Assembly: GCA_013288305.1 (NCBI GenBank)
Contig: JABDCD010000008.1
Coordinates: 1-40,083, forward strand
Source of the DNA: Alphaproteobacteria bacterium
GTDB taxonomy: Bacteria; Pseudomonadota; Alphaproteobacteria; Rickettsiales; SXRF01
Length of the DNA: 40,083 nucleotides
Direction: 5' to 3'
Under the pieces are notes generated by a model, which was not told where the DNA came from, did no database searches, and saw nothing but the letters and a program-made list of their open reading frames with translations. Shown one piece after another: positions 284 through 39,061 of the stretch. The translations under genes were made by a program, and so were the position numbers. The first letter of the stretch is position 1; the number at the start of each line of letters is the position of its first letter.

Positions 284-307
284 GTTGCTCGTTGCCCGTT
301 GCTTGCC
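284..307. repeat. single-arm heptamer array upstream of rsh
   Basis: Three consecutive 7-base words (GTTGCTC, GTTGCCC, GTTGCTT) followed by GCC. The period matches the other heptamer elements in this window. A possible degenerate opposite arm (GAGCAAT, AAACGAT, AAATAGC) ends at the rsh start codon, but it matches poorly. The rest of the 129-386 gap is AT-rich and should hold the divergent promoters for cpaB and rsh; I could not pick a convincing one. Confidence 0.4.
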
Positions 308-386
308 TTTAGTAGATAATAAACCATATAGCTATAGAGGGATTTTGGATGCCTTCATAAACCATGAGCAATAAACGATAAATAGC

Positions 387-2546
387 ATGATCCGCCAATA
401 CGAACTGGTTGAAAAAATCAAGTCCTACGATCCCGATGCCGACGAGGACATGCTCAACCGCGCCTATGTCTTCGCCATGAAAGCGCACGGCGCGCAGAAA
501 CGCGCCTCCGGCGATCCCTATTTCTCGCACCCGGTGGAAGTTGCTTATAAGCTCACGCAATACAAGCTCGACACCGCCTCCATTGTCACCGCCCTGCTGC
601 ACGATACCGTCGAGGATACCGAGGTGACGCTCGACGACATCGAAGCCAGCTTCGGCAAGGAAATCCGCAACCTCGTCGATGGCGTAACCAAATTGTCGCG
701 TCTCGAAGGCAAGTCGGAAAACCTGAACCAGGCGGAGAATTTCCGCAAGCTGCTCATCGCCATGAGCGAGGATCTGCGCGTGCTGCTGGTCAAGCTCGCC
801 GACCGCTTGCACAACATGGAAACGCTGAAATTCATCAAGTCGCCGGAAAAACGCCAGCGCATCGCCCGCGAAACGGTGGAGATTTACGCCGCGCTGGCCG
901 AGCGCATCGGCATGAGGAATTTGAAGGACGAATTGCAGGATTTAGCCTTTGCTGAGCTTTATCCGGAAGCGCGCGAATCGGTCATCAAGCGGCTTAATTT
1001 CCTGCGCGAACAGGGCGCCGCCGAGCTGGAAAAAACGGTTTCCGTCATCCGCCAGAAACTGGCCGAAGCCGGGTTGCCCGCCGCGCAAATCTATGGCCGC
1101 GAGAAAAAGCCGTTTTCGATCTGGAAGAAAATGGAAAGCAAGAACATGGAGTTCGAGCAACTCTCCGACATCTGCGGCTTGCGCATCGTCGTCGCCAATA
1201 TTGCCGAGTGCTATCAGGCGCTGGGTGTCATCCACGCCGAATGGCACACCATCCCCGGCCGCTTCAAAGATTATATTTCAACGCCTAAATCCAACGGCTA
1301 CCAGTCGCTGCACACCGCCGTGCTCGGGCCCGGCCAGCAGCGCGTCGAAATCCAGATACGCACGCAGGAGATGGACGAAATCGCCGAATACGGCCTGGCC
1401 GCACACTGGGCTTATAAACAGGCAAGCCACGCCATCAAGGACGGCAAGCAATTCCGCTGGATACGCGAGTTGCTCGACATTCTCGAAAAATCGTCCAACC
1501 CGGAAGAATTTCTGGAGAATACCAAACTGGAGATGTACCACGACCAGGTCTTCTGTTTCACACCCAAGGGTGATATCCTCGCCTTCCCGCGCGGCGCGAC
1601 GCCGGTGGACTTTGCCTATGCCGTGCATTCCGGCGTCGGCGACACCTGCGTCGGCGCGAAAATAAACGGCCGCATCGTGCCGCTGCGCACCAAGCTCAAA
1701 AACGGCGACCAGGTCGACATCATCACCAGCAAAACGCAAACGCCCAGCCCCAGCTGGGAGCGCTTCGTCGTCACCGGCAAGGCGAAAAGCGAAGTGCGCA
1801 AATACGTGCGCACGTCCCAGCGCAACGAATATGTCAATCTCGGCCGTGCCATCCTCGCCAAAACCTTCAAACAGGAAGGCGAGGAATTCGTCGAGTCGAT
1901 GGTCGAGCCGCACCTGCCGACATTCAACAAAAAAACGGTGGAAGATGTCCTGGCCGAAGTCGGCGAGGGATTGATTTCGCGCCAGCAGGTAATGGAGGTG
2001 GTGCTCGGCCAGAAAAAACCGGTACAGGCCAGCGGCAGCGGTTTACTATCGAGTCTGTCCAAGCCGTTCCGCAAGAAAAAAGAAAGCGGCACCAGCGCGC
2101 CGATGCCGATCAAGGGGCTGATCCCCGGCATGGCCATTCACTTCGCCGGCTGCTGCCACCCCATCCCCGGCGACCGCATCGTCGGCATCGTCACCACCGG
2201 CAAGGGCATCACCATCCATACCATGGATTGCGAGACGCTGGAGAATTATTCCGACGCGCCGGAGCGCTGGATCGACGTCGCCTGGGAACGCGACCAGAGC
2301 GACGCCACGCATGTCGGCCGCATCCACGCCCATGTCAGCCACGAACCGGCGGCGCTGGCCACCGTCACCCAGGTCATCGCCAAGGAAATGGGCAACATCA
2401 GCAATTTCAAAATCATCAACCGCTCGATCGATTTCTTCGAGATTTTAATCGACATCCAGGTGCGCGACCTGAAACATCTCAACAACATCATCGCCAACCT
2501 GCGCGCCAAGGAAGTGGTGCAGAGCGTGGAAAGGTGGCAGACGTAA
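387..2546 (+). CDS. rsh: bifunctional (p)ppGpp synthetase/hydrolase, Rel/SpoT family
   Basis: This cytosolic enzyme makes and degrades the stringent-response alarmone (p)ppGpp. All expected domains are present in 719 residues, the normal length for the family. The N-terminal HD hydrolase domain has H48 and the HD pair in LLHDTVEDTEV near residue 72. The synthetase domain (about 238-345) contains GREKKPFSIWKKM, RFKDYISTPKSNGYQSLHT and EIQIRT. A TGS domain starts at VFCFTPKGDILAFPRGATPV (about 388-450), followed by a helical/Cys-containing region (HFAGCCHPIPGD) and a C-terminal ACT domain (about 645-719). The RFKD motif at about 292 is the RxKD form of bifunctional Rel enzymes, not the ExDD form of RelA. 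No clear Shine-Dalgarno precedes the ATG. In many alphaproteobacteria rsh lies close to pdxJ-acpS; here two other genes intervene. Confidence 0.96.
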   Translation: MIRQYELVEKIKSYDPDADEDMLNRAYVFAMKAHGAQKRASGDPYFSHPVEVAYKLTQYKLDTASIVTALLHDTVEDTEVTLDDIEASFGKEIRNLVDGVTKLSRLEGKSENLNQAENFRKLLIAMSEDLRVLLVKLADRLHNMETLKFIKSPEKRQRIARETVEIYAALAERIGMRNLKDELQDLAFAELYPEARESVIKRLNFLREQGAAELEKTVSVIRQKLAEAGLPAAQIYGREKKPFSIWKKMESKNMEFEQLSDICGLRIVVANIAECYQALGVIHAEWHTIPGRFKDYISTPKSNGYQSLHTAVLGPGQQRVEIQIRTQEMDEIAEYGLAAHWAYKQASHAIKDGKQFRWIRELLDILEKSSNPEEFLENTKLEMYHDQVFCFTPKGDILAFPRGATPVDFAYAVHSGVGDTCVGAKINGRIVPLRTKLKNGDQVDIITSKTQTPSPSWERFVVTGKAKSEVRKYVRTSQRNEYVNLGRAILAKTFKQEGEEFVESMVEPHLPTFNKKTVEDVLAEVGEGLISRQQVMEVVLGQKKPVQASGSGLLSSLSKPFRKKKESGTSAPMPIKGLIPGMAIHFAGCCHPIPGDRIVGIVTTGKGITIHTMDCETLENYSDAPERWIDVAWERDQSDATHVGRIHAHVSHEPAALATVTQVIAKEMGNISNFKIINRSIDFFEILIDIQVRDLKHLNNIIANLRAKEVVQSVERWQT

Positions 2547-2548
2547 TG

Positions 2549-2670
2549 CGTCATTGCGAGGCGAAGCCGAAGCAACCTAGCGTGCCGCGTCTGCGGCGCA
2601 ATAGATTCTATACCGCGCCCACGGCGCTTAAACTGGATTGCCGCGTCGCCTTCGGCTCCTCGCAACGACG
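2549..2670. repeat. interspersed palindromic element (CGTCATTGCGAGG type)
   Basis: The 122-bp segment begins CGTCATTGCGAGGCGAAGCC. Its other end, read on the opposite strand, begins CGTCGTTGCGAGGAGCCGAA. The outer arms can therefore pair imperfectly over about 30 bases, around a middle that contains CCGCGTCTGCGGCG. It starts three bases after the rsh stop codon and may act as the rsh 3' end. Sequences of this general TCATTGCGAGGxxGAAG form are known as dispersed palindromes in several alphaproteobacterial genomes (recalled, not searched). Only one copy is in this window. Confidence 0.7.
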
Positions 2671-2703
2671 AATTTAGACAATTGTCACAAATCCTTCATA
2701 AAA

Positions 2704-2737
2704 GGTTAATCAAACTGTCACAATTCTCCTGTAAGAT
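2704..2737 (+). promoter_or_regulatory. Pho-box-like promoter of the 2811 gene
   Basis: Seven-base units at an 11-base period are visible: TTGTCAC (2682), CCTTCAT (2693), GGTTAAT (2704), CTGTCAC (2715), separated by AT-rich 4-mers (aaat, aaaa, caaa). The last unit ends exactly 10 bases before a -10-like TAAGAT (2732-2737), and no normal -35 is present. That spacing is what PhoB-activated promoters show. The individual units are imperfect, so the assignment is inference. Confidence 0.45.
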
Positions 2738-2810
2738 GGATTTATGGAGCCGGTTAAAAGGTTCTGCGTTACATAAAATCATTAATATCTAATAACTTAG
2801 GAGATTATTT

Positions 2811-3332
2811 ATGACAAGTTTTTCAAAAATAGCCACTTTCGCCTGTCTGGCGGGGTTGATGGCCATAGCCTGTAGTATGCCTGCGATGGCGCAAGGCTAT
2901 CCTGCGGGTCTTATTGTTGGCGGAGGTCTCCAAACAACCCTTGGGGTATTACCCGGACAACCAGGATACAAGCCTAACCCAAATTACGATAATAACGCGT
3001 GTACCGCGGGATGTAATGGTAGTGGTACAACCGTAGATGGAAAACCAGGAATTCATTGTCAGATATTTGGCATAGTGGGAGACGACATTTTTGATGCCAC
3101 GGATCTCGGTGTTTTTCCGTTTACAGGTACGGCGCCTGTCCTGGCAGCAGCACAAAAAGCTTGTGACTTGGGTTGTACGTCCGTAATGGCAAACGGCACT
3201 GTTGGTGCTAATAAGCCAGGCGCTGGCACTAATATTCCAACGTTGATTACGTGCAAACCAAAACCTGTCACTGGTACGCTAATAACACCAGGAGATGGTA
3301 CGCTAATAAGACCAACAAAACCAAAGCAGTAA
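2811..3332 (+). CDS. secreted Cys-containing protein of unknown function
   Basis: I do not recognise the family. The 173-residue product starts with a clear Sec signal peptide (MTSFSKIATFACLAGLMAIA, cleavage probably after PAMA-Q at about 28). The mature part is rich in Gly, Pro, Thr and Asn and has about five Cys (for example NNACTAGCNG, KACDLGCTS and ITCKP), suggesting disulphide bonds in the periplasm or outside the cell. The C-terminus has a short duplication, TGTLITPGDGTLIRPTKP. AGGAG lies 8 bases before the ATG. It is a single-gene unit, with its own promoter region upstream and a strong intrinsic terminator just downstream. It is more AT-rich than the flanking core genes, which suggests later acquisition. 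The Pho-box-like promoter would make it a phosphate-starvation gene if confirmed. Confidence 0.75.
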   Translation: MTSFSKIATFACLAGLMAIACSMPAMAQGYPAGLIVGGGLQTTLGVLPGQPGYKPNPNYDNNACTAGCNGSGTTVDGKPGIHCQIFGIVGDDIFDATDLGVFPFTGTAPVLAAAQKACDLGCTSVMANGTVGANKPGAGTNIPTLITCKPKPVTGTLITPGDGTLIRPTKPKQ

Positions 3333-3357
3333 TATACTGATATCTGAGTATCCATAA

Positions 3358-3387
3358 CAGCAGGCCTTAATGGCCTGCTGTTTTTTT
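3358..3387 (+). terminator. intrinsic terminator of the 2811 gene
   Basis: CAGCAGGCC, a 5-base loop, GGCCTGCTG, then seven T residues. The 9-bp stem is perfect. It lies inside the longest version of the next ORF (start at 3370), which argues for that gene's later start at 3457. Confidence 0.9.
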
Positions 3388-3456: not shown

Positions 3457-5130
3457 ATGAACATCGCCGCTATCCTCACGACGCACAATTCCGCCGCAAC
3501 GCTTGAGCGCGTACTGCGCCATTTAGCCAATAACGCCATCCGGGTCTATGCCATCGATCACGGCTCGACGGACGCCACGCCTTCCATCCTAGCCACCCAT
3601 GTGGGCAAGCCCATTGCAGAAATCATCCAAAAGCCTTTTGACGGGATTTTCCGGTTACGGCAGCAACTGCAATGGAAAAGCGACATTATCCAACGCATAA
3701 ACGCCGATTGGATCATCCATATCGATGCCGACGAAATCCTTGAATCGCCGCGGGAAGGGGAAAGCCTGCGCGGCATGATCGAAAGGATGAATGCGACGCA
3801 TTACGATGTGATCGACTGCGATGAATTCGTCTTCGTCCCTGAAAACGAGCAGGCGGATTATCGCAGCGCTGATTTTGTAACCACCATGCGGCATTATTAT
3901 TATTTCGCGCCGCCGGGGCGGGCACTCCACCGCGCCTTCCGCCGCAGCAGCGGCGCCCCGGAATGGGCGCATACGGGCGGCCACCGGCTGGGTTTAGCCA
4001 ACCGGAAGCTCGCGCCTGAGAAAATCCGGATGCGCCATTATATCGGGCTTTCCATGGATGCGCTGCGGGCGCAATATCTGTCCCGCGTATTCGCTGTCGA
4101 TGAATTGCGAAAAGGCTGGCATCATAATCGCGTGGCGACGACCGCAGATTTTATCATTCCTCCTCCGCCGGCCCGGCTGTTCAATCTGGATGAAGACGGC
4201 TGGCGGACGGATATGCCAGAAACAAAGCATCTTATTTTCAATCAACCGCAGCCTTATATCCCCCCTGCTCCCATAGCTTCGATTGCCAACAGGCCGGCGA
4301 TGCCGTTTATCGTCGGCGTCGGCAGGTCTGGAACGACGTTGCTCAGGCTCTTGATGGATGCGCATCCCGACCTCGCCATAACGCCGGAAACGCATTGGCT
4401 TTCGGATGCGATTACGGCTATCGGATCCATAAAGCAACTGCGTCATGTCATTATTGGTAATACCTATTGGAAAGACATAGGAATCTCCGATAAGGAATTG
4501 GACGCCATTCTTGAAAAGCATAATGGAGAAAAGCCATTTGATACTCTGAGGGCAATCTACCAGCATTATGGGAAGCGTTTCGGCAAATCCCGGGTCGGCG
4601 ACAAAACGCCCATTCATGGATTGATCATGCATAAAATCGCTCATGCTTTTCCCGAAGCGCATTTCATACATATTATCCGGGACGGGAGAGATGTCGCCGT
4701 AAGCTACCGCGATATGTGGTTCGGGCCGGGAAAAGACGCTAAAACGGCGGCAAAATTTTGGCTATGGCGAATCCGCGAAATGCGCCAGCAAGCGCAATTC
4801 CTGCCCCATTATATGGAGGTTCGTTACGAGCAGCTTGTTACCGAGCCGGAAACGGTTTTGCGCACGATTGGCGAGTTTATCCAGCTACCCTTTCACCGTA
4901 ATCAACTGCGCGCTCATGAGCATGCAGATTCAAGGCTTGCAGAGTTTGGCAATATACAGCATGGGGGCGCTGTTATTTCAACCGAACGGCGCAAGGCTAT
5001 CTTCGCCGAGACCCTTAATCCGCCCAACGATTCGCGCATCGGCCGCTGGCGCACGGAAATGACCAAAAAAGAAATGGCTGATTTCGAATCCATTGCCGGA
5101 AATATGCTTGCCGAATTGGGATATCTTTGA
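3457..5130 (+). CDS. glycosyltransferase family 2 - sulfotransferase fusion protein
   Basis: The first part (about 1-230) is a GT-A fold: [20 protein letters not shown] matches the nucleotide-binding start, DHGSTDATP follows, and [10 protein letters not shown] (DxD-type metal site near 90) is present. The second part (about 280-557) is a sulfotransferase: [20 protein letters not shown] is the 5'-phosphosulfate loop of PAPS-dependent enzymes, and [19 protein letters not shown] at about 405-420 is the 3'-phosphate motif. A protein that may both add and sulfate a sugar is plausible for surface polysaccharide or glycolipid, but no acceptor can be inferred. The longer ORF from 3370 starts inside the upstream terminator, so I chose M30, where the glycosyltransferase homology begins. 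It sits between rsh and pdxJ without other polysaccharide genes. Confidence 0.85.
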
Positions 5131-5144
5131 GGTATAGTAAGCTC

Positions 5145-5897
5145 ATGTATCTCCGCCTCGGCATCAATATAGACCATGTCGCCACGCTGCGCAACGCGCG
5201 CGGGGGCGAGCATCCCTGCCCGGTGCGCGCTGCGCTGCTGGCGATGGAGGCGGGGGCGGACGGGATTACGGCGCATCTGCGCGAAGACCGCCGGCACATC
5301 CGCGACCGCGACATCGAACGCCTCAAAAACGAAGTGAACCTGCCGCTGAATCTGGAAATGGCGATGACCGGGAAGATGCTCGCCATCGCGCTGAAAGTAA
5401 AGCCGCACGCCGTCTGCCTCGTACCCGAAAAACGCGAGGAGTTGACTACCGAAGGCGGCCTCGACGCGGCGCGTTTCGAGAAATCATTAAAACCCTTCGT
5501 GCAGAAATTACAAAACAATGGCAGCCGCGTCTCGCTGTTTATCGATCCGCACCCGGAACAAATCGATGCCGCGCAGCGCATCGGCGCGCGGGCGGTGGAG
5601 TTGCACACAGGGGGCTACGCGCAGTTGGCAGTTGGCAGTTGGCAGTTGGCAGAAACCAACAATCCATTATTAACTGCCAACCGCCAACTGCTAACTGCTG
5701 CGAAGCTTGCTTCGCAGCACGGCCTCGAAGTCCACGCCGGCCACGGCCTGAATTACGACAATGTCGGCCCCATCGCCGCCATCCCGGAAATCGTCGAGCT
5801 GAACATCGGGCATTTTTTAGTAGGCGAAGCGGTGTTCGTGGGGCTGGCGGAAGCCATACAAAAAATGCGCCGCCTCATGGACGAGGCACGGCCATGA
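5145..5897 (+). CDS. pdxJ: pyridoxine 5'-phosphate synthase
   Basis: PdxJ condenses 1-deoxyxylulose 5-phosphate with 3-amino-2-oxopropyl phosphate in the last ring-forming step of DXP-dependent vitamin B6 synthesis. Family motifs are intact: [16 protein letters not shown] at the start, [14 protein letters not shown] near 40-52, [16 protein letters not shown] near 152-159, [11 protein letters not shown] near 197-207 and [13 protein letters not shown]. The track start at 5127 is a TTG on the previous stop; ATG 5145 gives the usual N-terminus. Residues of about 160-185 ([20 protein letters not shown] and neighbours) are not family sequence but the translation of a heptamer-repeat element. The protein is roughly 8 residues longer there than I recall for E. 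coli PdxJ. The frame is kept and all motifs on both sides survive, so it is probably functional. The stop overlaps acpS by ATGA. Confidence 0.95.
5622..5700. repeat. heptamer-array inverted element inside pdxJ
   Basis: Four perfect tandem copies of CAGTTGG (5622-5649), a 23-base AT-rich centre, then ACTGCCA, ACCGCCA, ACTGCTA and ACTGCTG as an imperfect reverse-complement arm. The whole 79 bp is open in the pdxJ frame. It is followed directly by a separate perfect hairpin (TGCTGCGAAGC, TT, GCTTCGCAGCA; 5696-5719), which encodes native-looking PdxJ sequence (AAKLAS). Confidence 0.92.
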
Positions 5898-7050: not shown

Positions 7051-7954
7051 AAATACGCCTCCACAAATTCCCGCGCCGAACGCTTTTGCCTTTTTGCGCC
7101 GGCCGCTGTTTATTTTCGGCGCGCTGTTTCTCGCCTGGATTTTTCTCGGGCAATCCGTTCCGCATATGCTGCCGCGCCCTGTCGAGCCGATGGTTTCCCC
7201 CACCCCGCCGGAAGCCGCGCCAGAAAAAGATGCCCAAATCACCGAACTGAAAACCCGCATCGACGAGCTGGAAGCCAAAGTCAAAACCCTCGCCGAAAAA
7301 CCCGCCGATAGCGCGACTGCGGAAAAAATCGACGCGCTCCAGGCCAGGGTCGATGCGCTGCAGCAGGCGCACGCCTCGGAAGCCGGCGACACTGCGCATC
7401 TGCGCGAATCGCTTTCCGCCATGAAAACGCAGATGGCGGAAATCCAAACGCAGGCGCTGCACAAGCTGGCGTTGCTGGCCGCCTTCGCACCGCTCAAGGA
7501 TACCATCATGCGCGGCGAGCCGTTCGCCGAACCGCTGCGCCAGATGAACGAATTGGCTAAGGACGATGCCGACATCCAGCCCTTGCTGGCGCAACTGGCA
7601 CCTTATGCCGCCACAGGCACGGCCACGCTTTCGGAACTGCAAAACCAATTTGAGGCCGCGATTGCGCAAGCCCTTGCGCCCGGAACGTCCAATGTGCTGG
7701 CGCGTCATCTGCAATCACTGGTGCGCGTCCGCAAAGTCGGCGACCAGCAGGGCAATGACGACGAAGCCATCGTCGCCCGCGCTGAAGCCCGGCTGGAACG
7801 CGGCGAAGTCGAAGGCAGCCTGAACGAACTGGCCGCGCTGTCGCCCCCGGCCGCCGCCGTCTTCGCCGCCTGGAGCGACAAGGCGCGCGGCACCCTGCGC
7901 ATCCGCGATACGCTGGCCGCCGTGCCGCCGATGCTGATGAAAGTCGCAGAATGA
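7022..7954 (+). CDS. mitofilin/Mic60-like inner membrane protein (COG4223 type)
   Basis: A short cytoplasmic N-terminus is followed by one membrane helix (about residues 28-46, PLFIFGALFLAWIFLGQSV). Next come a Pro-rich linker, a coiled coil (about 70-145, with KTRIDELEAKVKTLAEKP and IDALQARVDALQQAH), and a helical C-terminal domain ending in DTLAAVPPMLMKVAE. This is the architecture and genomic position (between hemD and hemY) of the alphaproteobacterial homologue of the mitochondrial cristae protein Mic60/mitofilin, which shapes inner-membrane invaginations and contacts the outer membrane. I chose ATG 7022, with GGAG ten bases upstream. ATG 7034 is an alternative and the track start at 6995 lies well inside hemD. 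It overlaps hemY by ATGA. Confidence 0.82.
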   Translation: MFSRMEDEIKNTPPQIPAPNAFAFLRRPLFIFGALFLAWIFLGQSVPHMLPRPVEPMVSPTPPEAAPEKDAQITELKTRIDELEAKVKTLAEKPADSATAEKIDALQARVDALQQAHASEAGDTAHLRESLSAMKTQMAEIQTQALHKLALLAAFAPLKDTIMRGEPFAEPLRQMNELAKDDADIQPLLAQLAPYAATGTATLSELQNQFEAAIAQALAPGTSNVLARHLQSLVRVRKVGDQQGNDDEAIVARAEARLERGEVEGSLNELAALSPPAAAVFAAWSDKARGTLRIRDTLAAVPPMLMKVAE

Positions 7955-9042
7955 TCAACCTGCTCCTGCTCTTGCTGTTCATCACCTGCCTGGGCATCGT
8001 CGCCGCATGGATGGCCGAGAATCCCGGCAGCGTGACCATCCACTGGTTCGATTACCGCATCGACACCAGCTTCGCCTTCCTGCTGGCGGCGGCTCTGACC
8101 GCGGCTATCGTTGTCACCTGCAGCACCCTTATCATCCGCCGCCTGACGCTGTGGCCGAAGCAGGCGTCGCAGGCGCGGCGGCTCAAATATCAGCGCCTCG
8201 GTCTTACCGAACTCACCTACGGCGTCGCGGCGCTGGCCTCCGGCGACATCGCCGACGCCGAAAGCCACACGAAACACGCGCGCAAATTGCTGGGCGGCGC
8301 GCCGCTGGTGCTGTTACTCTCCGCGCAAATAGCCCGCAGCCGCGGCGATGACGACGCCACGCGCACCCTGCTCGAACAGATGCTGGCGCATGAGGAAACC
8401 GAATATCTGGCGGCACGGTCGCTCAGCGAAGCCGCGAGCAAGCAACAGATCTTCCCCAAGGCGCTGGCGCTGGCGCAGCGAGCGGAGGCGATCAATCCCA
8501 AGGCCGGTACCGCCGTCATTAGCCTGCATACGCGTCTCGGCCAGTGGCAGGAGGCCATGCTTGCCATCGACAAGGCAATGCGCAAAGGACTGCTCACGCG
8601 CGCCCAGCGACGGCGTTACCAGGGCATCGTGCATATCGAGGAAGGCATACAATTGCTGGCAAACCATTCGCCGGCGGCGCCGGCCGTCGCCCGCCAGGCT
8701 TTGAAAGAATTGCCCGGATTCGTTCCCGCCATCGTACTTGCCGCCCGCGCCTTTGCCGCCGACGGGCAGAACGATAAAGCCCTCCAGCTCATCCTGCGCA
8801 GCTGGAAAAAATCGCCGCACCAGCAACTGGCCGGGCAGTTCCACCTCCTCCTCGTCCAGGAACCGTTGGACCGGCAGAAAAAACTGGCCGGCCGGTTTAT
8901 CGCCATGCATTCCAAACTGCCGCCCGCCGCCATATGGACCTGTTCCGCCTGCGGCTATATATCAAAAACCTGGGAAGCGCATTGCCCCGCCTGCGGGGGG
9001 TTTGACACGGTGGAAGATCAGGGGATAGTGGTTAGGGTATAG
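7951..9042 (+). CDS. hemY: HemY-like inner membrane TPR protein with C-terminal zinc ribbon
   Basis: There are two N-terminal membrane helices (about 1-20 and 43-63), with the conserved AENPGSVTIHWFDYRIDTS between them. A soluble helical TPR region (about 80-320) follows, with repeats such as FPKALALAQRAEAINPKAG and LGQWQEAMLAIDKAM. At the end is a zinc ribbon, WTCSACGYISKTWEAHCPAC, as in alphaproteobacterial HemY proteins. HemY of this type (not protoporphyrinogen oxidase) is linked to heme biosynthesis by context; its molecular role is unsettled. The C-terminus is odd: the last codons (QGIVVRV and stop) are supplied by a 37-bp perfect inverted repeat that also encodes the same seven residues at the end of the convergent lipoprotein gene. 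Confidence 0.88.
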   Translation: MINLLLLLLFITCLGIVAAWMAENPGSVTIHWFDYRIDTSFAFLLAAALTAAIVVTCSTLIIRRLTLWPKQASQARRLKYQRLGLTELTYGVAALASGDIADAESHTKHARKLLGGAPLVLLLSAQIARSRGDDDATRTLLEQMLAHEETEYLAARSLSEAASKQQIFPKALALAQRAEAINPKAGTAVISLHTRLGQWQEAMLAIDKAMRKGLLTRAQRRRYQGIVHIEEGIQLLANHSPAAPAVARQALKELPGFVPAIVLAARAFAADGQNDKALQLILRSWKKSPHQQLAGQFHLLLVQEPLDRQKKLAGRFIAMHSKLPPAAIWTCSACGYISKTWEAHCPACGGFDTVEDQGIVVRV

Positions 9043-9109
9043 GGGTTAGTGAAGAATAGAAAATGTCCCACACTTCACTAACCCCTATACCCTAACCACT
9101 ATCCCCTGA
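9018..9109. repeat. perfect 37-bp inverted repeat of heptamer words between convergent genes
   Basis: Arm 9018-9054 (TCAGGGGATAGTGGTTAGGG...) and arm 9073-9109 are exact reverse complements, separated by 18 bases. The words have a 7-base period (GGGGATA, GTGGTTA, GGGTATA, GGGGTTA). Each arm provides the last codons and TAG stop of one of the two converging genes, so hemY and the 9085 gene both end in QGIVVRV. The stem should also work as a bidirectional transcription stop. Confidence 0.95.
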
Positions 9110-13124: not shown

Positions 13125-14660
13125 CTAGACTCCTAATGGGATTGTTTTAAAATTTATTGCCTGCTCCAGCCCATAGGCCACGTTCAGCACCGTTTCCTCG
13201 TCGAAGGCTTTGCCTATCAATTGCAATCCGAGCGGCAAACCATCCTTGTTCAGAGCACCCGGAATGGAGATACCGGGCAGTCCGGCAAGCGACGTCGGCA
13301 CGGTGAAGACGTCATTCAGATACATGGTGATCGGATCGATATTTTTCTCGCCGATGGCAAACGCGGCGGACGGCGCCGTCGGCGTCAGGATGGCATCGAC
13401 TTTCTCGAACGCCTTCCTGAAATCCTCAGCGATCAGCCAGCGTACGCGCTGCGCCTTTTTGTAATAGGCATCGTAATAGCCTGCCGAGAGCACATAGGTG
13501 CCGATCAGGATGCGCTTTTTGACTTCCTGGCCGAAGCCCGCCGCCCGCGTTTTTTCATACATCGCGGTGAGCGAATCGCCCGCATCGCCCGCGCGCAGGC
13601 CGAAGCGTATTCCGTCGTAACGCGCAAGATTACTGGAGCATTCCGCCGGCGCAACGATATAATAAGCGGGCAACGCATATTTGGTATGCGGCAGCGAGAT
13701 GTCGACGATTTCGGCGCCCGCTTCCCGCAATAATGTTGCGCCGCGATCCCACATGGCGAGGATTTCCGCATCCATGCCGTCTACACGATATTCTTTCGGG
13801 ATGCCGATTTTTTTGCCTTTGACGTTGCCGGAAAGCGCCGCGGCGAAATCGGGCACGGCCAGCTTCATGCTGGTCGAATCTTTCGCATCGTGGCCGCACA
13901 TGACGGAAAGCATAATCGCGCAGTCGCGGACGTTGCGTGCAATCGGCCCGGCCTGGTCGAGCGAGCTGGCAAACGCCACGATGCCCCAGCGCGAGCAACG
14001 TCCATAAGTCGGCTTGATGCCGACGATGCCGCAGAACGACGCCGGCTGGCGGATCGAGCCGCCGGTGTCGGTGCCGAGCGCCACCGGGCAGAGATTAGCC
14101 GCTACCGCCGCCGCCGAGCCGCCGGAGCTTCCTCCGGGAACGAGTGCTGAGTTGGGAGTGCTGAGTGCTGAGTTATCATTTTCTCCTTTACTCTGCACTC
14201 TGCACTCTGCACTCTGCACTTTTTGCCAAGGTGACACCACCAGCCCGTAATAACTGGTCAAATTCGCCGAGCCCATGGCGAACTCATCCATATTAAGCTT
14301 GCCGAGCATCACCCCGCCCGCATCCCAGATTTTCTGCGTCACCGTCGATTCATACGGCGGCTTAAACCCGTCGAGAATATGCGATGCCGCGGTGGTCAGC
14401 ACGTCCTTCGTGCAGAATAAATCCTTGACGCCGACCGGAATGCCCTCGATCAGGCCGCCCTGCCCTTTGGCCAGCTTCGCATCCGACGCCGCGGCCATGT
14501 CCAGCGCCTTGTCGCGCGTAATGGTGATGAAGGCGTTATAATGCGCGTTGGTTTTTTCAATCTCCGCCAGATGCGCCTCGGCCAGATCCACGGCGGAGAA
14601 CTTCCTGGCGCGGAGGCCTTCGCGCATGGCGGCTAAAGATAGTGTGGTGACTCCAGTCAT
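13125..14660 (-). CDS. gatA: Asp/Glu-tRNA(Asn/Gln) amidotransferase subunit A
   Basis: GatA is the amidase subunit of GatCAB; it releases ammonia from glutamine for the amidation carried out with GatB. The amidase-signature triad is intact: Lys79 in [10 protein letters not shown], the cis-Ser in [14 protein letters not shown] (about 178) and the nucleophile in [12 protein letters not shown] (about 202). The protein is 511 residues, longer than the usual 480-490. The excess is an in-frame run of about 26 residues (148-173, [20 protein letters not shown] and on) just before the PGGSSGG signature, where other GatA proteins have only a few residues (NPWD-x3-VPGGSSGG). That run is encoded by a heptamer element. 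Both flanks are conserved, so the enzyme is probably active with a surface loop added. The start overlaps the upstream gene by ATGA. Confidence 0.95.
14142..14222. repeat. heptamer-array inverted element inside gatA
   Basis: One arm is built from GTGCTGA-type words (GTGCTGA, GTTGGGA, GTGCTGA, GTGCTGA). The centre is AT-rich. The other arm is ACTCTGC repeated four times. Read in the gatA direction, both arms are stop-free words (GTGCAGA and TCAGCAC), so the 81-bp element adds about 26 codons without breaking the frame. Confidence 0.92.
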
Positions 14661-15811: not shown

Positions 15812-15950
15812 CCCCGCACTTGTTGCGGGGTCCGGTTTTTCCTTTACCCAACAGCGAAGCTCGGTTTTAATAGAGATTATTAACAATGACAAGTCGATAG
15901 TCGCTATGTCCCATGTCCGCCCAAAACCAGACCCCGCAACAAGTGCGGGG
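15812..15950. repeat. opposed pair of CCCCGCACTTGTTGCGGGG hairpins
   Basis: Copy 15812-15830 and the reverse-complement copy 15932-15950 flank the gatC/ruvX divergent promoter region. Each copy is itself a hairpin (CCCCGCA, 5-base loop, TGCGGGG) and the two can also pair with each other over about 20 bases. The second copy ends five bases before the ruvX start codon, so the ruvX leader and possibly its ribosome binding (GCGGGG) come from the repeat. A third, slightly degenerate copy lies upstream of rpsB. Confidence 0.88.
15864..15892 (-). promoter_or_regulatory. sigma70-type promoter for the gatC operon
   Basis: On the minus strand, TTGTCA (15892-15887), a 17-base spacer, then TAAAAC (15869-15864), about 67 bases upstream of the gatC start. 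The spacing is ideal; the -10 is imperfect. Confidence 0.5.
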
Positions 15951-21730: not shown

Positions 21731-22027
21731 ATGCCCAAAGCCCGCATCACCCGCCCCGATAAAACCGCCATGCAATCGGGCAAGGCGGGAATGAAGCACT
21801 GGCTGCTCGAATTCGCGCCCGACAAGCCCTATTTCATCGATAATCTCATGGGCTGGACCGGCATGACCGACATGCCCCAGGAAATCCATCTCTATTTCCC
21901 GACCAAGGAAGCCGCCATTGCCTACGCCAAGGCAAAACGTATCCCCTATGACGTCTATGTCCCCAATAAGCGCCGCCCGGTGCGCAAGGCTTATGCCGAT
22001 AACTTTAGATACGAGAAAAGGGGTTAG
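21731..22027 (+). CDS. NADH dehydrogenase accessory subunit, NDUFS4 (18 kDa) homologue
   Basis: The 98-residue product matches the ETC complex I NDUFS4 family of alphaproteobacteria and mitochondria: ARITRPDKTAMQSGKAGMKH at the N-terminus, WLLEFAP, NLMGWTGMTDMPQEIHLYFP, TKEAAIAYAKAKRIPYDVYV and KAYADNFRYEK. In complex I this subunit stabilises the NADH-oxidising module. The normal family end, as I recall it, is a short NF----R--PWTH tail. Here it stops at NFRYEKRG, and the last Gly and TAG are the first bases of a GGGGTTA heptamer element, so the tail appears to have been replaced. A TATAAA lies only six bases upstream of the ATG with no Shine-Dalgarno, consistent with a leaderless mRNA. Confidence 0.85.
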   Translation: MPKARITRPDKTAMQSGKAGMKHWLLEFAPDKPYFIDNLMGWTGMTDMPQEIHLYFPTKEAAIAYAKAKRIPYDVYVPNKRRPVRKAYADNFRYEKRG

Positions 22028-22096
22028 GGGTTAGAGCATAGAAAATCATTAAATACAATATCTTCACTATATCCTATACCCTAACCCCCTATACCC
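22019..22096. repeat. heptamer-array inverted element at the end of the NDUFS4 homologue
   Basis: One arm reads GGGGTTA, GGGGTTA, GAGCATA. The centre is AT-rich and contains ATAGAAAAT. The second arm is TATATCC, TATACCC, TAACCCCC, TATACCC. The words and the shared ATAGAAAAT...CTTCACTA centre mark it as the same subfamily as the element at 9018-9109, although the arms here are imperfect. Confidence 0.85.
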
Positions 22097-22103
22097 TCGA
22101 CCT

Positions 22104-26180: not shown

Positions 26181-27143
26181 TTAGTCAACCCACCCCTTCT
26201 CCTTATAATATTTGAACGCGCCGGGATGGGTGGGAATGGCGGCGGCGTTGCGCGCCATGCGGTTGGCGTCGAGGGTGGCGAACACCGGGTGGAGGGTTTT
26301 GAAATTATCGAGATTGTCGAACACCGCCTTCACGATCTGGTAGACGATTCCGTCATCGAGGTCGGCCGAGGCGACCAGCACCGCGCGCACGCCGAAGGTC
26401 TTGACGTCCTTGGGATTGCCGGCATACATGCCGCCGGGAATCGCCGCATGGGAATAAAACGGATGCTCGGCGATGAGCTTGTCGATCACCGGCCCGCTGA
26501 CATCGACCAGCCGCGTCGGGCACTGGCTGGTGATCTGCTGGATGGCGCCGTTGGGATGGCCGCCGGCATAAATCAGCGCGTCGATCTTGCCGCTGCACAG
26601 CGCCTGCGCCTGGTCGCTGGATTTAAGGTCGGCGACATTGGCGAAGGTCTTGCTGTTCCAGCCCTTGCGCTCCATCAATTCTTCCATGGTCGCCCGCGGG
26701 CCGGAGCCGGGCGCACCCATATAAACGCGCTTGCCCTTTAAATCATCGAAGGTTTTGATCCCCGCATCCTTGCGCGCCACCACCGTGAACGGCTCGGCAT
26801 GGAGCGAGAAGACGACGCGCAGGTTTTTATCCGCTCCGACATCGGAAAATATTTCGCTGCCGGTATAGGCGTAATAGAGCAGGTCGGATTGCACGACGCC
26901 GAGGTCGAGGTCGCCCTTGCGGATGGCTTCGAGATTATTGATCGATCCGCCGGTAGATTCGACGGTGCAGCGGATGCCGTGCTCCTTGCGCCCGCGATTG
27001 ACCAGCCGGCAGATCGCCCCGCCCGCCGGATAATACACGCCGGTGACGCCCGCCGTGCCGATGGTGACGATCTTCTCGGCGGCCTGGGCAGCAGAAGTCG
27101 CCAGCGATAGCGCGGCAAAAACAAATAGTATTCTGGTAAACAT
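26181..27143 (-). CDS. TAXI-family TRAP transporter solute-binding protein
   Basis: This is a periplasmic binding protein. An N-terminal signal peptide (MFTRILFVFAALSLATSAAQA-A) precedes the mature domain starting EKIVTIGTAGVTGVYYPAGG, the TAXI signature in which T-x-x-x-G-x-Y-x-x-G contacts the ligand. CTVESTGGSINNLEAIRKGD, LGVVQSDLLYYAYTG and KRVYMGAPGSGPRATMEELM are further family blocks. TAXI proteins normally work with a fused TRAP membrane protein; none is present here. Instead a GltP-type symporter is next downstream, so the pair may share an acidic substrate or the binding protein may have a sensing role. No Shine-Dalgarno is visible before the ATG, and a heptamer array lies about 20 bases upstream. 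Confidence 0.9.
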   Translation of the reverse strand: MFTRILFVFAALSLATSAAQAAEKIVTIGTAGVTGVYYPAGGAICRLVNRGRKEHGIRCTVESTGGSINNLEAIRKGDLDLGVVQSDLLYYAYTGSEIFSDVGADKNLRVVFSLHAEPFTVVARKDAGIKTFDDLKGKRVYMGAPGSGPRATMEELMERKGWNSKTFANVADLKSSDQAQALCSGKIDALIYAGGHPNGAIQQITSQCPTRLVDVSGPVIDKLIAEHPFYSHAAIPGGMYAGNPKDVKTFGVRAVLVASADLDDGIVYQIVKAVFDNLDNFKTLHPVFATLDANRMARNAAAIPTHPGAFKYYKEKGWVD

Positions 27144-27165: not shown

Positions 27166-27200
27166 ACTGCCAACTGTCAACTGGTAACTGTCAACTAACT
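27166..27200. repeat. single-arm heptamer array after the diguanylate cyclase gene
   Basis: ACTGCCA, ACTGTCA, ACTGGTA, ACTGTCA, ACTAACT: five tandem 7-base words, the same word family as the pdxJ element (ACTGCCA is the complement of TGGCAGT). It overlaps the stop codon of the GGDEF gene and fills the gap to the TAXI gene. No opposite arm is present. Confidence 0.8.
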
Positions 27201-27893
27201 CCCCGCCTTCGCCCGTCTCTTATCGACATACATCGACATGTCGGCGGAGGCCAGGGCGGCTTCGGCGTCGTCGCCGCTTTTGATGGAGTAATAGCCGTAG
27301 GCGGTGGTGACGTAGAGGTGCGTGCCGTTGAAAACGAACGGGGTTTTCTGCAGCTTTTCGACGATTTTGGCGCCGCGCAGCTTGGCGGCTTCTTCGCTGG
27401 CGTAATACATGATGACGGCGAATTCATCGCCGCCGATGCGCGCCAGGAAATCCGATTCGCGCATGGTGGTCGATAATATCTGCGAGATATGGCGGATGGC
27501 GAGGTCGCCCGCCGAATGGCCGTACTGGTCGTTGATTTCCTTGAAATCGTTGATGTCGAAATAAAGGATGGTAGAGGGATGGCCATAGCGCTCATGCATG
27601 GTGATCGCCCACGACATGCGGCGCATGAAGGCGCGGCGGTTGGGAATCGGCGCGACGCAATCGACGTCAACCAGCCGCTCGATTTCGGCCAGGCTTTCCT
27701 TGGTGCGCGACAAATCGCGGCTGACGTCGTCGAGCTTTTCCAGCAGCGCCGACACCGCCAGATTGACCGACGGCGTCATCTCTTGCTCGGGAATGCCCAG
27801 CATGGCCAGCCGCTCGGCGATTTTCGCCTGCGGGCCCGGTTTTTTATCGGTTGTCCCAGCCTTGGACACTTCCTTCACTGCGTCTGGCGCCAT
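27195..27893 (-). CDS. diguanylate cyclase (GGDEF domain)
   Basis: This enzyme makes the second messenger c-di-GMP from two GTP. The 232-residue protein (start MAPDAVKEV at 27893, AGGAG five bases upstream) has an N-terminal helical segment (about 25-75, VSALLEKLDDVSRDLSRTKE, probably a dimerising coiled coil) and a C-terminal GGDEF domain. PIPNRRAFMRRM, ILYFDINDFKEINDQYGHSA (metal-binding Asp, substrate Asn and Asp) and ARIGGDEFAVIMYY are intact. RESD lies exactly five residues before GGDEF, so the inhibitory I-site (RxxD) is present. There is no membrane segment or sensor domain; it is cytoplasmic. The stop codon falls in a heptamer repeat. Confidence 0.92.
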   Translation of the reverse strand: MAPDAVKEVSKAGTTDKKPGPQAKIAERLAMLGIPEQEMTPSVNLAVSALLEKLDDVSRDLSRTKESLAEIERLVDVDCVAPIPNRRAFMRRMSWAITMHERYGHPSTILYFDINDFKEINDQYGHSAGDLAIRHISQILSTTMRESDFLARIGGDEFAVIMYYASEEAAKLRGAKIVEKLQKTPFVFNGTHLYVTTAYGYYSIKSGDDAEAALASADMSMYVDKRRAKAGS

Positions 27894-28016
27894 AACTCTC
27901 CTTAAAATCAACACTAGCTATAGCATTAAATGATTCTAAACAAAAGCATATTATTTAGCGCATTCATTGACTTTTCGGGCGGATATTGTAGGTTCTGCCC
28001 AACTTGTGAGGAAATT

Positions 28017-30251: not shown

Positions 30252-30285
30252 GGCAGTTGCCGAAAAATGATGCTCACGACAATTT

Positions 30286-30344
30286 CAGGTGACAGGCGAC
30301 AGGCGACAGGTTACAGATTCTGACATCTGACCTCTGTCACCTGA
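30286..30344. repeat. heptamer-array inverted element before fumC
   Basis: GTGACAG, GCGACAG, GCGACAG, GTTACAG (7-base period), an AT-rich centre, then CTGTCAC and CTGA. The outer 11 bases TCAGGTGACAG and CTGTCACCTGA pair perfectly. It ends five bases before the fumC start codon and leaves no room for a normal Shine-Dalgarno. Confidence 0.85.
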
Positions 30345-30349
30345 TACCT

Positions 30350-31737
<1,388 letters not shown>

Positions 31738-31741
<4 letters not shown>

Positions 31742-35684: not shown

Positions 35685-35696
35685 TTGAAAAGCCTA

Positions 35697-36146: not shown

Positions 36147-36168
36147 TCGACATCTTTGCCAACTGCCA

Positions 36169-36200
36169 AAAGGGCGGCTTTCAAGCCGCCCTTTTTCTTT
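36169..36200 (+). terminator. intrinsic terminator after the 35823 gene
   Basis: AAAGGGCGGCTT, loop TC, AAGCCGCCCTTT then a T-rich tail (TTCTTT). The stem is at least 11 bp and perfect. Confidence 0.92.
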
Positions 36201-36211
36201 GCAAAAACCTC

Positions 36212-36240
36212 TTGAAACCCCCGCGCTTTGGGTGTAAAAG
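36212..36240 (+). promoter_or_regulatory. sigma70-type promoter of rpsB-tsf
   Basis: TTGAAA (36212-36217), 17-base GC-rich spacer, TAAAAG (36235-36240). It directly follows the terminator and gives a leader of about 130 bases before rpsB. Confidence 0.6.
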
Positions 36241-36316
36241 GCTTCTCCCTTCATGAGAAGGGATTATTTCACAGGCGGAATTCGGTTGGAAAACGGTGTT
36301 TTCCCGCCATCCGGTG

Positions 36317-36335
36317 CCCCGCACTTGTTGCGGAG
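36317..36335 (+). repeat. CCCCGCACTTGTTGCGGAG hairpin, third copy
   Basis: It matches the pair at 15812-15950 except for one base near the 3' end of the stem (GGAG instead of GGGG). It lies in the rpsB leader, where a stem could influence translation or autoregulation by S2. Confidence 0.75.
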
Positions 36336-36378
36336 TACACAATTCCGCCGAGGTTCAACCGGAAAAAGGAAGTTACTT

Positions 36379-37326
36379 ATGGCATTACCCGCATTCAACA
36401 TGCGCGAGCTGATCGAAGCCGGCGTGCATTTCGGACATAAAACCAAACGCTGGAACCCGCGCATGGCGCCGTTTATTTACGGCGTCCGCAGCGACATCCA
36501 CATCATCGACCTCGGCAAAACCGTGCCCATGCTGCACGCCGCGCTTTCCACCGTGCGCGACACCGTGGCCAAAAACGGCCGCATCTTATTCGTCGGCACC
36601 AAGCGCCAGGCCACCGACCCCATCGCCGAAGCGGCCAAGCGCTGCGGCCAGTATTACATCAACCGCCGCTGGCTGGGCGGCTTGCTCACCAACTGGAACA
36701 CCATCCAGGTCTCGATCAAAACCCTGCGCAAGCTCGAAGAACAGCTTGCCGGCCCCAATGCCGGCTTCACCAAAAAAGAACTGCTCTCCATGCGCCGCCA
36801 CCGCGACAAGCTGGAAGCAAGCTTGGGCGGTATCAAGGACATGGGCGGCCGCCCTGACCTGCTCTTCATCATCGACACCAACAAGGAAGAACTGGCAGTG
36901 AAAGAAGCGCAGAAGCTGGGCATCCCCATCGTCGCCATCATCGACAGCAACTGCACGGTGGACGGCATCACCTACCCCATCCCCGGCAACGATGATTCGA
37001 CGCGCGCCATTCACTTATATTGCCGCCTCATCTCCGACGCCGTGATCGACGGCATCCAACAGAGCATGGCCAAAACCGGCCAGGACCTGGGCGCGCGCGA
37101 AGACGTGAGCGAGCTAGTGGCCGTTGACATCGCCGCCGCTGGCGAACAAGCGGCTGCCGAGGCGGAATCCGCCGAAGCCAAGGCGAAAGAAGCCAAAAGC
37201 GAAGAAGATGCCCGTCGCAACAAAGGCGGCCGCAATAACCGCCGCGGCGGCGCCGCTAAGAAGCCGCCGACGGTGCAGGTAAAAAAAGGCCCGCCGGGGA
37301 AGATTGCCAAAAAATCGGAAGAATAG
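36379..37326 (+). CDS. rpsB: 30S ribosomal protein S2
   Basis: S2 is a late-assembling small-subunit protein that holds S1 on the ribosome. From [20 protein letters not shown] the 315-residue product carries the family signatures ([120 protein letters not shown]). The C-terminus carries an extension of about 65 residues, first Ala/Glu-rich and then strongly basic ([20 protein letters not shown]), longer than in E. coli but common in alphaproteobacteria. AAGGAAG precedes the start; the longer track ORF is rejected. Its TAG stop overlaps the first bases of a heptamer element. Confidence 0.97.
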
Positions 37327-37385
37327 TGCTGAGTGCACAGTGCTGAGTTAATTTTCTCAGCACTGTGCACTCTAAACTCGGCACT
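37325..37385. repeat. heptamer-array inverted element between rpsB and tsf
   Basis: GTGCTGA, GTGCACA, GTGCTGA, AT-rich centre (GTTAATTTTC), TCAGCAC, TGTGCAC, TCTAAAC, TCGGCAC. Arms CAGTGCTGAG and CTCAGCACTG (37338-37347 and 37356-37365) pair perfectly. It separates rpsB from the tsf ribosome site and may attenuate or insulate the two reading frames. Confidence 0.92.
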
Positions 37386-37412
37386 TCTAGAATGCACAAA
37401 GGATACAATTTT

Positions 37413-38339
37413 ATGACCCAAGTAACCGCCGACCAAATCAAAAGCTTGCGCGAAACCACCGGCGCGGGGATGCTTGACTGCCGCAAGGCGCTGACCGAAT
37501 CCGCCGGTAACATGGATAACGCCATCGACTGGCTGCGCAAAAAAGGTATCGCCGGAGCAGCCAAGAAATCCGGCCGCATCGCCGCCGAGGGCGTCGTTGC
37601 CATCGCCGTCGAGGGACTTAAGGGCGCCATCGTCGAACTCAACTCCGAAACCGATTTCGTCGCGCGCAACGAGCAGTTCCAGAAATTGGCAGGCACCATT
37701 GCGGAAACCGCCGTGCGCCACAGCATCGGCGATGTCGAAGAACTGAAAAACACCAGCACCAGCTACGGCAAAACCGTCGCCGAAGGCATCACCTATATGA
37801 TCGCCACCATCGGCGAGAACATCAACCTGCGTCGCGCCGCCATCCTCGGCGTCACGCACGGCATCGTCGCCAGCTACATCCATAATGCCGTCGCGCCCGG
37901 CATGGGCAAGATCGGCATCCTGGTCGGCATCGAATCGACCGGCGACCTCACCAAAGTCGAAGCCTTCGGCAAGCAAATCGCCATGCACATCGCCGCCGCC
38001 CGCCCGGAAGCCTTGTCCACCGCCGACCTCAGCGCCGATAAACTCGCCCGCGAACGCGCCGTTTACCGCGAGCAGGCCGCCGCCTCCGGCAAGCCGCCCG
38101 AAGTCGTCGAAAAAATGGTCGAAGGCCGCGTGCGCAAATATTACGAGGAAGTCGTGCTGCTCGAACAGCTCTTCGTCATCGACGGCAAAACCAAAATCTT
38201 AAGCGCCGTAGCCAACGCCGCCAAAGACATCGGCGCCCCGGTCAAAATCACCGGCTTCATCAGCTACCGCCTCGGCGAAGGCATCGAGAAAGCTCAGAGC
38301 GATTTCGCGGCGGAAGTAAAGGCGGCGGCGGGGGCTTAA
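37413..38339 (+). CDS. tsf: translation elongation factor Ts
   Basis: EF-Ts is the nucleotide exchange factor that recycles EF-Tu-GDP. From MTQVTADQIKSLRETTGAGM the 308-residue product has the N-terminal UBA-like domain with CRKALTESAGNMDNAIDWLR, then KSGRIAAEGVVAIAVEG, the VELNSETDFVARNEQF signature (TDFV contacts EF-Tu), and the core subdomains with MHIAAARPEAL. The end (SYRLGEGIEKAQSDFAAEVK) matches the family. AAAGGAT lies eight bases before the ATG; the ORF start at 37365 lies in the repeat and is rejected. The stop codon overlaps the first two bases of the twin-hairpin element. Confidence 0.97.
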   Translation: MTQVTADQIKSLRETTGAGMLDCRKALTESAGNMDNAIDWLRKKGIAGAAKKSGRIAAEGVVAIAVEGLKGAIVELNSETDFVARNEQFQKLAGTIAETAVRHSIGDVEELKNTSTSYGKTVAEGITYMIATIGENINLRRAAILGVTHGIVASYIHNAVAPGMGKIGILVGIESTGDLTKVEAFGKQIAMHIAAARPEALSTADLSADKLARERAVYREQAAASGKPPEVVEKMVEGRVRKYYEEVVLLEQLFVIDGKTKILSAVANAAKDIGAPVKITGFISYRLGEGIEKAQSDFAAEVKAAAGA

Positions 38340-38427
38340 TCCTGTGGCCAGCCGAAGGCTGGAGCACAGGATCTCTCTATCCCATTTGCACGGGATCCTG
38401 CGCCTCCGCTTCGCTACGCGCAGGATT
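38338..38427. repeat. twin-hairpin element, copy 2
   Basis: AATCCTGTGGCCAGCC...GCACAGGAT, linker CTCTCTATCCCATTTGCACG, GGATCCTGCGC...GCGCAGGATT. The layout and linker match copy 1 (24746-24831), while the hairpin tips differ. It begins inside the tsf TAA and runs into the last codons of the convergent rsmD, so it supplies the RsmD residues K-S-C-A and stop. Confidence 0.9.
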
Positions 38428-38980
38428 TAATCAACTCCACCACCGCCCGCCCATACCTCCGCTGGTCTATGACCGAAAATCCCTCTGGCAGTTCGATGAT
38501 TTCCTTGGCGTCATGTTCGGCGACGATGAGCGCATCCTCGCCGATCCAGCCACCTTCCTGCAATTTTTTCAAGGTCGGCGCGATGAGCTTGCTGAAATAG
38601 GGCGGGTCGAGGAAAATCAGCGAATAATTTTTCCGCGCGCGCGATAATTTCGTCGCGTCGATGAGCAGGAAATCGGCATGTTCCAATTCGCCGAAGCGTT
38701 CGACATTGTGCCGCACCGTGGCCATCGCCTCACGCGCCTGGTCGACGAACGTCACCTCGGCAGCCCCGCGCGACAACGCCTCCAGCCCGAACGCCCCAGT
38801 GCCGCAGAACACATCGAGCACGCGCTGCCCCTCAAACGTATGGCCGTTCAGGCCATGCTTGCTATGCGCCAGGATATTGAAAATGGCCTCGCGCGCGAAA
38901 TCCGACGTCGGGCGGATGGCGTCCGCCTCCTTGCCCAGCTCGATGCGTCGGCCTCTGTGTTTTCCGGAGATGATGCGCAT
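38414..38980 (-). CDS. rsmD: 16S rRNA (guanine966-N2)-methyltransferase
   Basis: RsmD methylates G966 of 16S rRNA using S-adenosylmethionine. The 188-residue product begins MRIISGKHRGRRIELGKEAD, with the conserved RPTSDFAREAIFNIL block. The SAM-binding VLDVFCGTGAFGLEALSRGA, VDQAREAM, and the catalytic LIFLDPPYFSKL (NPPY-type DPPY) are all present. The last four residues and the stop codon (KSCA*) lie in the end of the twin-hairpin repeat, a minor C-terminal replacement. The start is followed upstream by another repeat (38985-39061), which separates it from the rluB-type remnant read in the same direction. Confidence 0.95.
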   Translation of the reverse strand: MRIISGKHRGRRIELGKEADAIRPTSDFAREAIFNILAHSKHGLNGHTFEGQRVLDVFCGTGAFGLEALSRGAAEVTFVDQAREAMATVRHNVERFGELEHADFLLIDATKLSRARKNYSLIFLDPPYFSKLIAPTLKKLQEGGWIGEDALIVAEHDAKEIIELPEGFSVIDQRRYGRAVVELIKSCA

Positions 38981-38984
38981 GGGC

Positions 38985-39061
38985 GGTAATTGGAATTTTG
39001 GTAACTGGTAATTGGAATATGTTTATATTCTAATTACCGAGATTCCAATTACTAATTACCG
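38985..39061. repeat. heptamer-array inverted element between rsmD and the rluB remnant
   Basis: GGTAATT, GGAATTTT, GGTAACT, GGTAATT, GGAATAT, centre GTTTATATTCT, AATTACC, GAGATTCC, AATTACT, AATTACC. The period is 7 with occasional 8. On the minus strand it provides the final Gly-Asn and TAG of the pseudouridine synthase. Confidence 0.88.

Follow-up and report, generated by a model that had tools for sequence, protein, structure and literature searches.

What process leaves runs of seven-base words, usually facing a mirrored run across a short loop, scattered through a bacterial genome? The question is raised by a 40,083-nucleotide stretch (hereafter the window), the entire contig C8 (JABDCD010000008.1) of an uncultured alphaproteobacterium of the order Rickettsiales, whose assembly comprises 1.04 Mb in 52 contigs and is 55% complete. 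From the letters of the window, an earlier note had listed ten sites built of tandem heptamers and proposed a dispersed family of constant architecture whose word changes from locus to locus. We find that the genome carries such a family, written in words of 7 or 8 bp from a small, reused vocabulary. Its presence both in gaps between genes and inside essential genes suggests that a copying process has gone unrecognised and is tolerated by bacteria. To our knowledge, reports of bacterial heptamer repeats go back decades, and their length and spread have been left without explanation.

Period and design of the word-array hairpins

The genome-scale scan covered 40 stretches plus the window, or 787 kb of 1,039 kb (G000 denotes the source genome, G001 and onward the genomes of relatives, and L-numbers the scanned stretches). 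Self-match segments scoring ≥ 12 numbered 70 at a lag of 7 bp and 20 at a lag of 8 bp, compared with 3–4 at most other lags (multiples of 3 and harmonics excluded) and in third-order Markov (Markov-3) shuffles. The floor of 3–4 segments at other lags is due to runs of N, and 84 arrays were left once these runs had been removed. Inverted repeats scoring ≥ 12, sought independently of any period, numbered 123 against 18 in a shuffle; a clear period was present in 62 (7 bp in 50, 8 bp in 12) and in one from the shuffle, and periods of 4–6 and 9–12 bp were absent among these strong inverted repeats. The comparison with shuffles had been set as the test beforehand, and the hairpin rate lies far above them. 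A genome-wide family of constant architecture is thus borne out, with one amendment: the unit is not strictly 7 bp, as 8-bp words occur in the same design.

A looser catalogue holds 73 hairpins, about ninety per million bases, with median lengths of 24 nt for the arm, 23 nt for the loop and 72 nt overall. The loop is 63% AT, A-rich first and T-rich after, and the 5′ arm contains more G than C in 70 of the 73. The G-rich arm also comes first in the reverse complement of these hairpins, and the G-first order is therefore a genuine polarity of the layout. Opposed arms are the usual layout, as first described, although that description lacked both the polarity and the third of the hairpins that lie inside genes.

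The two arms are matched to each other. An opposing arm (score ≥ 12) lies near 62 of the 84 arrays, and the reverse-complement match of an array averages 14.2 in its own neighbourhood against 6.3 in the flanks of other loci, with scores ≥ 20 reached in 18% and 1.3%, respectively. Varied series of words are mirrored perfectly (37/37 at window position 9018 and 30/30 at position 17924 of L147), and arms are therefore copied from each other. In GatA and LeuRS each arm is uniform and the two differ at one word position, so that arms of this type also homogenise alone or are kept apart by selection. No homology was found between the loops of different loci (similarity 8.2 vs 7.6 for shuffled loops), nor any target-site duplication in the flanks (direct repeat or common substring 3.68 vs 3.65 in swapped pairs), which together argue against the movement of intact units.

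Words, in turn, are shared to an extent that the idea of a freely changing word did not anticipate. Among 61 period-7 hairpins there are 62 exact same-word pairs; 2000 composition-preserving shuffles gave a mean of 5.6 and at most 16. Exact pairs were used as the measure because single-linkage clustering, although it gives 13 clusters against 25 in the null, yields a largest cluster equal to that of the null. The main words in the source genome are AGTGCTG, ATGGGTC, AGTTGGC, and AGGGATT.

Sites in the window

All ten sites listed at the outset are present in the window, whose genes are typical core genes by Pfam; an Rfam search of the window matched no family, and ARAGORN found no tRNA in it. 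Lag-7 segments scoring ≥ 9 number nine, against a mean of 0.33 and a maximum of 2 in 60 Markov-3 shuffles; lags of 5, 10, and 11 give none, and lags of 8 and 13 give one each. Inverted repeats (IR) scoring ≥ 12 number seven, against 1.0 in shuffles. The two-arm layout holds at seven sites, whose RNA folds have z-scores of −3.5 to −11.7, but not at 284, 27166, and 30833. The lag-7 signal is weak at 9018 and 37325, where the evidence is the perfect or long hairpin together with known word variants. The sites are as follows (TRF, Tandem Repeats Finder):

284..307 (+): single array of about three GTTGCYC words upstream of a RelA/SpoT gene (387–2546, +; gene by Pfam); TRF, lag-7 score 9; no opposing arm found
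5621..5699 (+): hairpin CAGTTGG/CCAACTG, in frame within pdxJ (5127–5897, +); RNA fold −51.9 kcal/mol, z −8.8
9018..9109 (+): hairpin with GGGRWTA/GTGGTTA words that overlaps a hemY-like gene (7951–9042, +) at its 3′ end; arms 37/37 paired, −72.8 kcal/mol
14142..14220 (−): hairpin in gatA (13125–14660, −), in frame, in a linker before a 10-residue stretch; sense arm GAGTGCA, opposite arm the complement of GAGTGCT
22019..22097 (+): degenerate hairpin AGGGGTT/CTATACC, intergenic; TRF, IR score 10, fold z −3.5
27166..27196 (−): single CAGTTGN array in the spacer between minus-strand genes 26181–27143 and 27195–27914; no opposing arm found
30285..30344 (+): hairpin CAGGCGA/TCTGACA in the spacer immediately upstream of fumC (30350–31741, +); not seen at that spot in three readable relatives
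30833..30862 (+): word-like run GCACTCA within fumC; no opposing arm found
37325..37390 (+): hairpin AGTGCTG filling the rpsB–tsf spacer, starting at the rpsB stop codon
38985..39060 (+): hairpin GGTAATT in the spacer between minus-strand genes 38414–38980 and 39052–39429; IR score 13, fold z −6.6

The run inside fumC shows no indel relative to relatives or to solved fumarases. Because the native PAL..LH.AL motif already largely spells the word, it may be ordinary coding sequence, and we set it aside as ambiguous.

Placement between and inside genes

Of the 73 hairpins, 47 lie at gene junctions, where they commonly start a few bases past a stop codon and end just before the next start, and 26 lie within open genes. 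The latter include PdxJ, GatA, PrmC, LipB, PurU, UbiD, MutY, LeuRS, AtpG, PolA, AcsA, MnmA, and TrmB, names assigned from sequence and confirmed in part by further comparisons. Genes were called with a hexamer-based caller written for this analysis (84% coding), and since this caller demands open frames, openness alone is weak proof of in-frame placement; its independent signs, as read from the sequences, are homologue comparison and word choice.

In AcsA, a 31-aa insert lies between residues that are adjacent in solved acetyl-CoA synthetases. The linkers that house the GatA and UbiD arrays are shorter in relatives lacking an array there, and both arrays continue into native word-like codons. 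LeuRS, FumC, PdxJ, and AtpG show replacement in which the net length changes little or modestly: the two LeuRS arms lie on variable spots separated by 33 aa, with a small net difference in length, and the PdxJ and AtpG arrays stand in for variable stretches, a variable helix being replaced in PdxJ with a net gain of 8 aa.

Word choice follows the reading frame. The sense arms of in-gene elements carry GAGTGC followed by A, which holds no stop, in 10 of 13 words, and the paired antisense arms carry GAGTGC followed by T, which holds TGA, in 13 of 13, the words in question coming from few elements. Stops per 100 nt of the 5′ arm amount to 3.2 in the sense orientation, 5.8 in the antisense orientation, and about 7 in spacers. 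In MnmA, the sole unit that would set TGA in frame reads TGG.

Occupancy of the same site in relatives

In-frame arrays with empty relatives are those of GatA, AcsA, UbiD, and MnmA. The GatA site holds arrays in the source genome and G015 and is empty in 14 other relatives with readable sites (GatA divergence to the nearest relatives is ∼17%). The UbiD site holds CAGTT-type arrays in the source genome and G004 and a GAGTGTGG array in G015, and is empty in G001, G008, and G011. The rpsB–tsf spacer is occupied by the 7-bp AGTGCTG hairpin in the source genome, by a hairpin of the 8-bp word GATGACTG in the relative L061, by a short CAGTTGT/AGTGGTC hairpin in L067, and by unrelated hairpins in others. 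The sites are thus not conserved in the manner of ordinary coding sequence, and different words at one site in relatives, along with unrelated loops and unduplicated flanks, uphold the earlier distinction from copies of repetitive extragenic palindromic (REP) sequences or miniature inverted-repeat transposable elements (MITEs).

The AcsA and MnmA linkers of G001 hold an unrelated GC-rich palindrome, also in frame; the linkers compared here are spots permissive for palindromes generally. That palindrome is related to another palindromic repeat, at window positions 15812–15950 (CCCCGCACTTGTTGCGGGG...CCCCGCAACAAGTGCGGGG), of which related copies lie at 10113 of L155, 14018 of L163, and 2666 of L177.

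Spread of the vocabulary

The GAGTGCT, GGGATTG, CAGTTGG, and GTCATGG word families also occur in relatives, in forms that include GAGTGTT, GTCATGA, and 8-bp GATGACTG-like words. GAGTGCT arrays are present in 8 of 55 relatives. GGGATT arrays occur in 24 of 131 genomes of the order and are strong in a few scattered families, a count whose reversed-pattern control is an unclean null, GGGNTTA itself being near a word used here. Very high counts of GGGATT-type arrays were observed in G061 and G098, which belong to other families of the same order. No such hairpins were found in 1.12 Mb scanned from more distant Alphaproteobacteria.

Queried against 72,556 plasmids, the GGGATT (GGGATTG) hairpin gave 13 matches, 12 of them cyanobacterial, and the AGTGCTG hairpin gave 11, six of them cyanobacterial; CAGTTGG gave two weak matches and GTCATGG none. 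BLAST queries consisting solely of tandem words had no matches, an outcome probably due to the low-complexity filter. One Nostoc plasmid carries an AGTGCTG hairpin, and the remaining sampled plasmid arrays are direct.

Comparison with known repeats

The closest parallel is the P6b stem of the Nostoc trnL(UAA) group I intron, in which 7-nt motifs (Class I TDNGATT, Class II NNTGAGT) form one stem and, as Olsson and Rikkinen describe, one word class is repeatedly replaced by another (PMC4476775). Here too, 7-nt words form both hairpin arms, one class swaps for the other at a site while the stem design persists, and the two P6b motifs have their counterparts in the GGGATT and GAGTGCT words. With words and stem design both matching, the kinship to cyanobacterial heptanucleotide repeats that had earlier been left as a question is supported. 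P6b is a single RNA locus of cyanobacteria, whereas the alphaproteobacterial hairpins are genome-wide, employ many words including 8-bp ones, and enter protein genes.

Direct heptamer arrays are known as the TAACTGA repeats of Beggiatoaceae (MacGregor; PMC4679880) and the GGGNATC repeats of Xanthomonas and Nostoc, described by Rehm and colleagues, who state that detailed literature on heptameric repeats did not exist (PMC4692102). Together with cyanobacterial short tandemly repeated repetitive (STRR) sequences, they share with our hairpins tandem 7-bp words, an overlapping vocabulary, patchiness across phyla, and many intergenic copies. They are mainly direct and use one or few words, in contrast to the opposed arms and many coexisting words found here. 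As for membership in the STRR type, the tandem unit is 7 bp in 50 of the 62 periodic inverted repeats and 8 bp in 12, and the cyanobacterial vocabulary is shared by AGTGCTG and GGGATTG, while CAGTTGG and GTCATGG queries did not point mainly to cyanobacterial plasmids.

Rickettsia palindromic elements form families of ∼100–150 bp with a conserved sequence and peptide per family (reviewed in PMC10969869 and PMC3733652). A kinship raised earlier stands as regards in-frame placement, which works alike: in both cases palindromes occur between genes as well as in frame within numerous enzyme genes of unrelated kinds, and are absent in relatives. It fails as regards the type of sequence, since only words and layout, rather than a family sequence or peptide, are shared among our hairpins. 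MITEs and REP sequences, including bacterial interspersed mosaic elements (BIMEs) and their REP-associated tyrosine transposases (RAYTs), resemble them as short dispersed hairpins in spacers, but our hairpins lack a conserved whole-element sequence and a target duplication, and a Y1 transposase was sought without success in array-bearing relatives. Coding palindromes in Nematomorpha mitochondria, both arms of which encode conserved native protein without word periodicity (PMC6649704), likewise show inverted repeats tolerated within conserved protein genes, and differ in lacking the periodicity found here.

The combination of the genome-wide opposed layout, the mixed 7- and 8-bp lengths, the polarity, and the in-frame, stop-avoiding placement was not found in the open-access literature searched. 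This is a second bacterial lineage besides Rickettsia that tolerates in-frame palindromes in core enzymes, with stop-free words on the translated arm. With some 73 hairpins in 787 kb, strict periods of 7 or 8 bp, a polarity, and natural comparisons of empty sites and swapped words, the question of their length and spread becomes testable.

Origin of the hairpins

An explanation has to accommodate what is observed: restriction to 7 or 8 bp, arm matching, polarity, a shared vocabulary, in-frame placement, stop avoidance, and different words at the same site. The reading we favour, with roughly even confidence, is that the word-array hairpins are dispersed, non-autonomous elements that belong with the heptanucleotide repeats of cyanobacteria, produced by slippage, fold-back template switching, and short ectopic copying, and filtered by selection. 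An array of 7- or 8-bp words would grow by slippage; a fold-back template switch during replication would write the opposing arm and later re-match the arms; words would reach other loci by short ectopic copying, which would take hold where native sequence resembles a word and often overwrite instead of inserting; and selection would purge harmful copies, leaving survivors in gene spacers and, in frame and stop-free, in variable protein linkers. Perfect hairpin stems are reported to arise and to be maintained through template switching (PMC8794818). Slippage and template switching are established mutational routes, and we infer that they apply to these hairpins.

Several points weigh against this account. 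No mutation was directly observed, and boundary microhomology comes from two or three sites; the clean 31-aa AcsA insert resembles the behaviour of a mobile element; and array-carrying species are patchy within the order, which a patchy trans-acting factor could explain. From slippage and template switching of a generic kind one would not expect a fixed 7- or 8-bp unit, a cross-phylum vocabulary, or G-first polarity, which leaves room for a dedicated system. It is conceivable, if unlikely, that a dedicated, sequence-tolerant copying system produces opposed arrays, G-first, from words of a set length of 7 or 8 bp in scattered phyla, including cyanobacteria and this alphaproteobacterial order. 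A dedicated mobile element, whose trans-acting enzyme (a RAYT-like Y1 transposase, a reverse transcriptase, or another) recognises or writes and inserts the hairpins, is a possible though doubtful source. The fixed word length, G-first polarity, vocabulary common to different genera and phyla, AcsA insert, and patchy distribution would suit it; the unduplicated flanks and unshared loops would not. Nor was PF01797 (Y1) found in G000, G004, G005, or G007–G011, or PF00078 (reverse transcriptase) in G000, G001, G007, G009, or G011, although one match to reverse transcriptase occurs in G004. The G000 assembly is just 55% complete, but G004, G007, G009, and G011 carry word arrays yet lack PF01797. 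The RAYT-like mobiliser proposed earlier was thus sought and not found in array-bearing genomes. RAYT and reverse transcriptase are unsupported as mobilisers: among nearly complete array-bearing relatives, Y1 transposases are missing from several, and reverse transcriptases are mostly missing too.

Selection locus by locus for functional hairpins (attenuators, terminators, mRNA stabilisers, or protein-binding sites) appears decidedly unlikely as the general explanation: many orthologous sites are empty, enzyme genes of diverse kinds contain a third of the hairpins, and no downstream function is shared. Consistent with such roles, the folds are very stable, of the 43 junction elements whose two neighbours are known, 38 lie between co-directional genes (65% for spacers ≥ 60 bp), several relatives have some hairpin in the rpsB–tsf spacer, and a regulatory role has been proposed for TAACTGA repeats (PMC4679880). 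Horizontal movement of the words from cyanobacteria, or the reverse, followed by amplification, would account for the cyanobacterial share of plasmid matches to the GGGATTG and AGTGCTG hairpins, but it is very improbable given that many words of the order are not found on plasmids, that the arrays on the cyanobacterial plasmids sampled are direct for the most part rather than inverted, and that cyanobacterial genes were not seen in the flanks. Chance, ordinary coding periodicity, or assembly artefact, to which the run inside fumC might be ascribed, can hardly explain the hairpins: counts are near zero in shuffles and at other lags, and the same hairpin types occur in independently assembled relatives, which refutes this explanation for the family as a whole.

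Other repeats in the source genome

A 69-bp perfect palindrome about a run of N (L177, 6758–6907) is probably a scaffolding artefact. A further dispersed inverted repeat of the TGTCATTCCCGCG(A/T)AGGCGGGAATCCA type occurs at L143 9438–9546, L169 12861–12969, L175 18666–18777, and L162 10787–10848. Two AGCA tetranucleotide arrays, both of 30 nt and with similar flanks, lie at L157 15142–15171 and L175 15633–15662.

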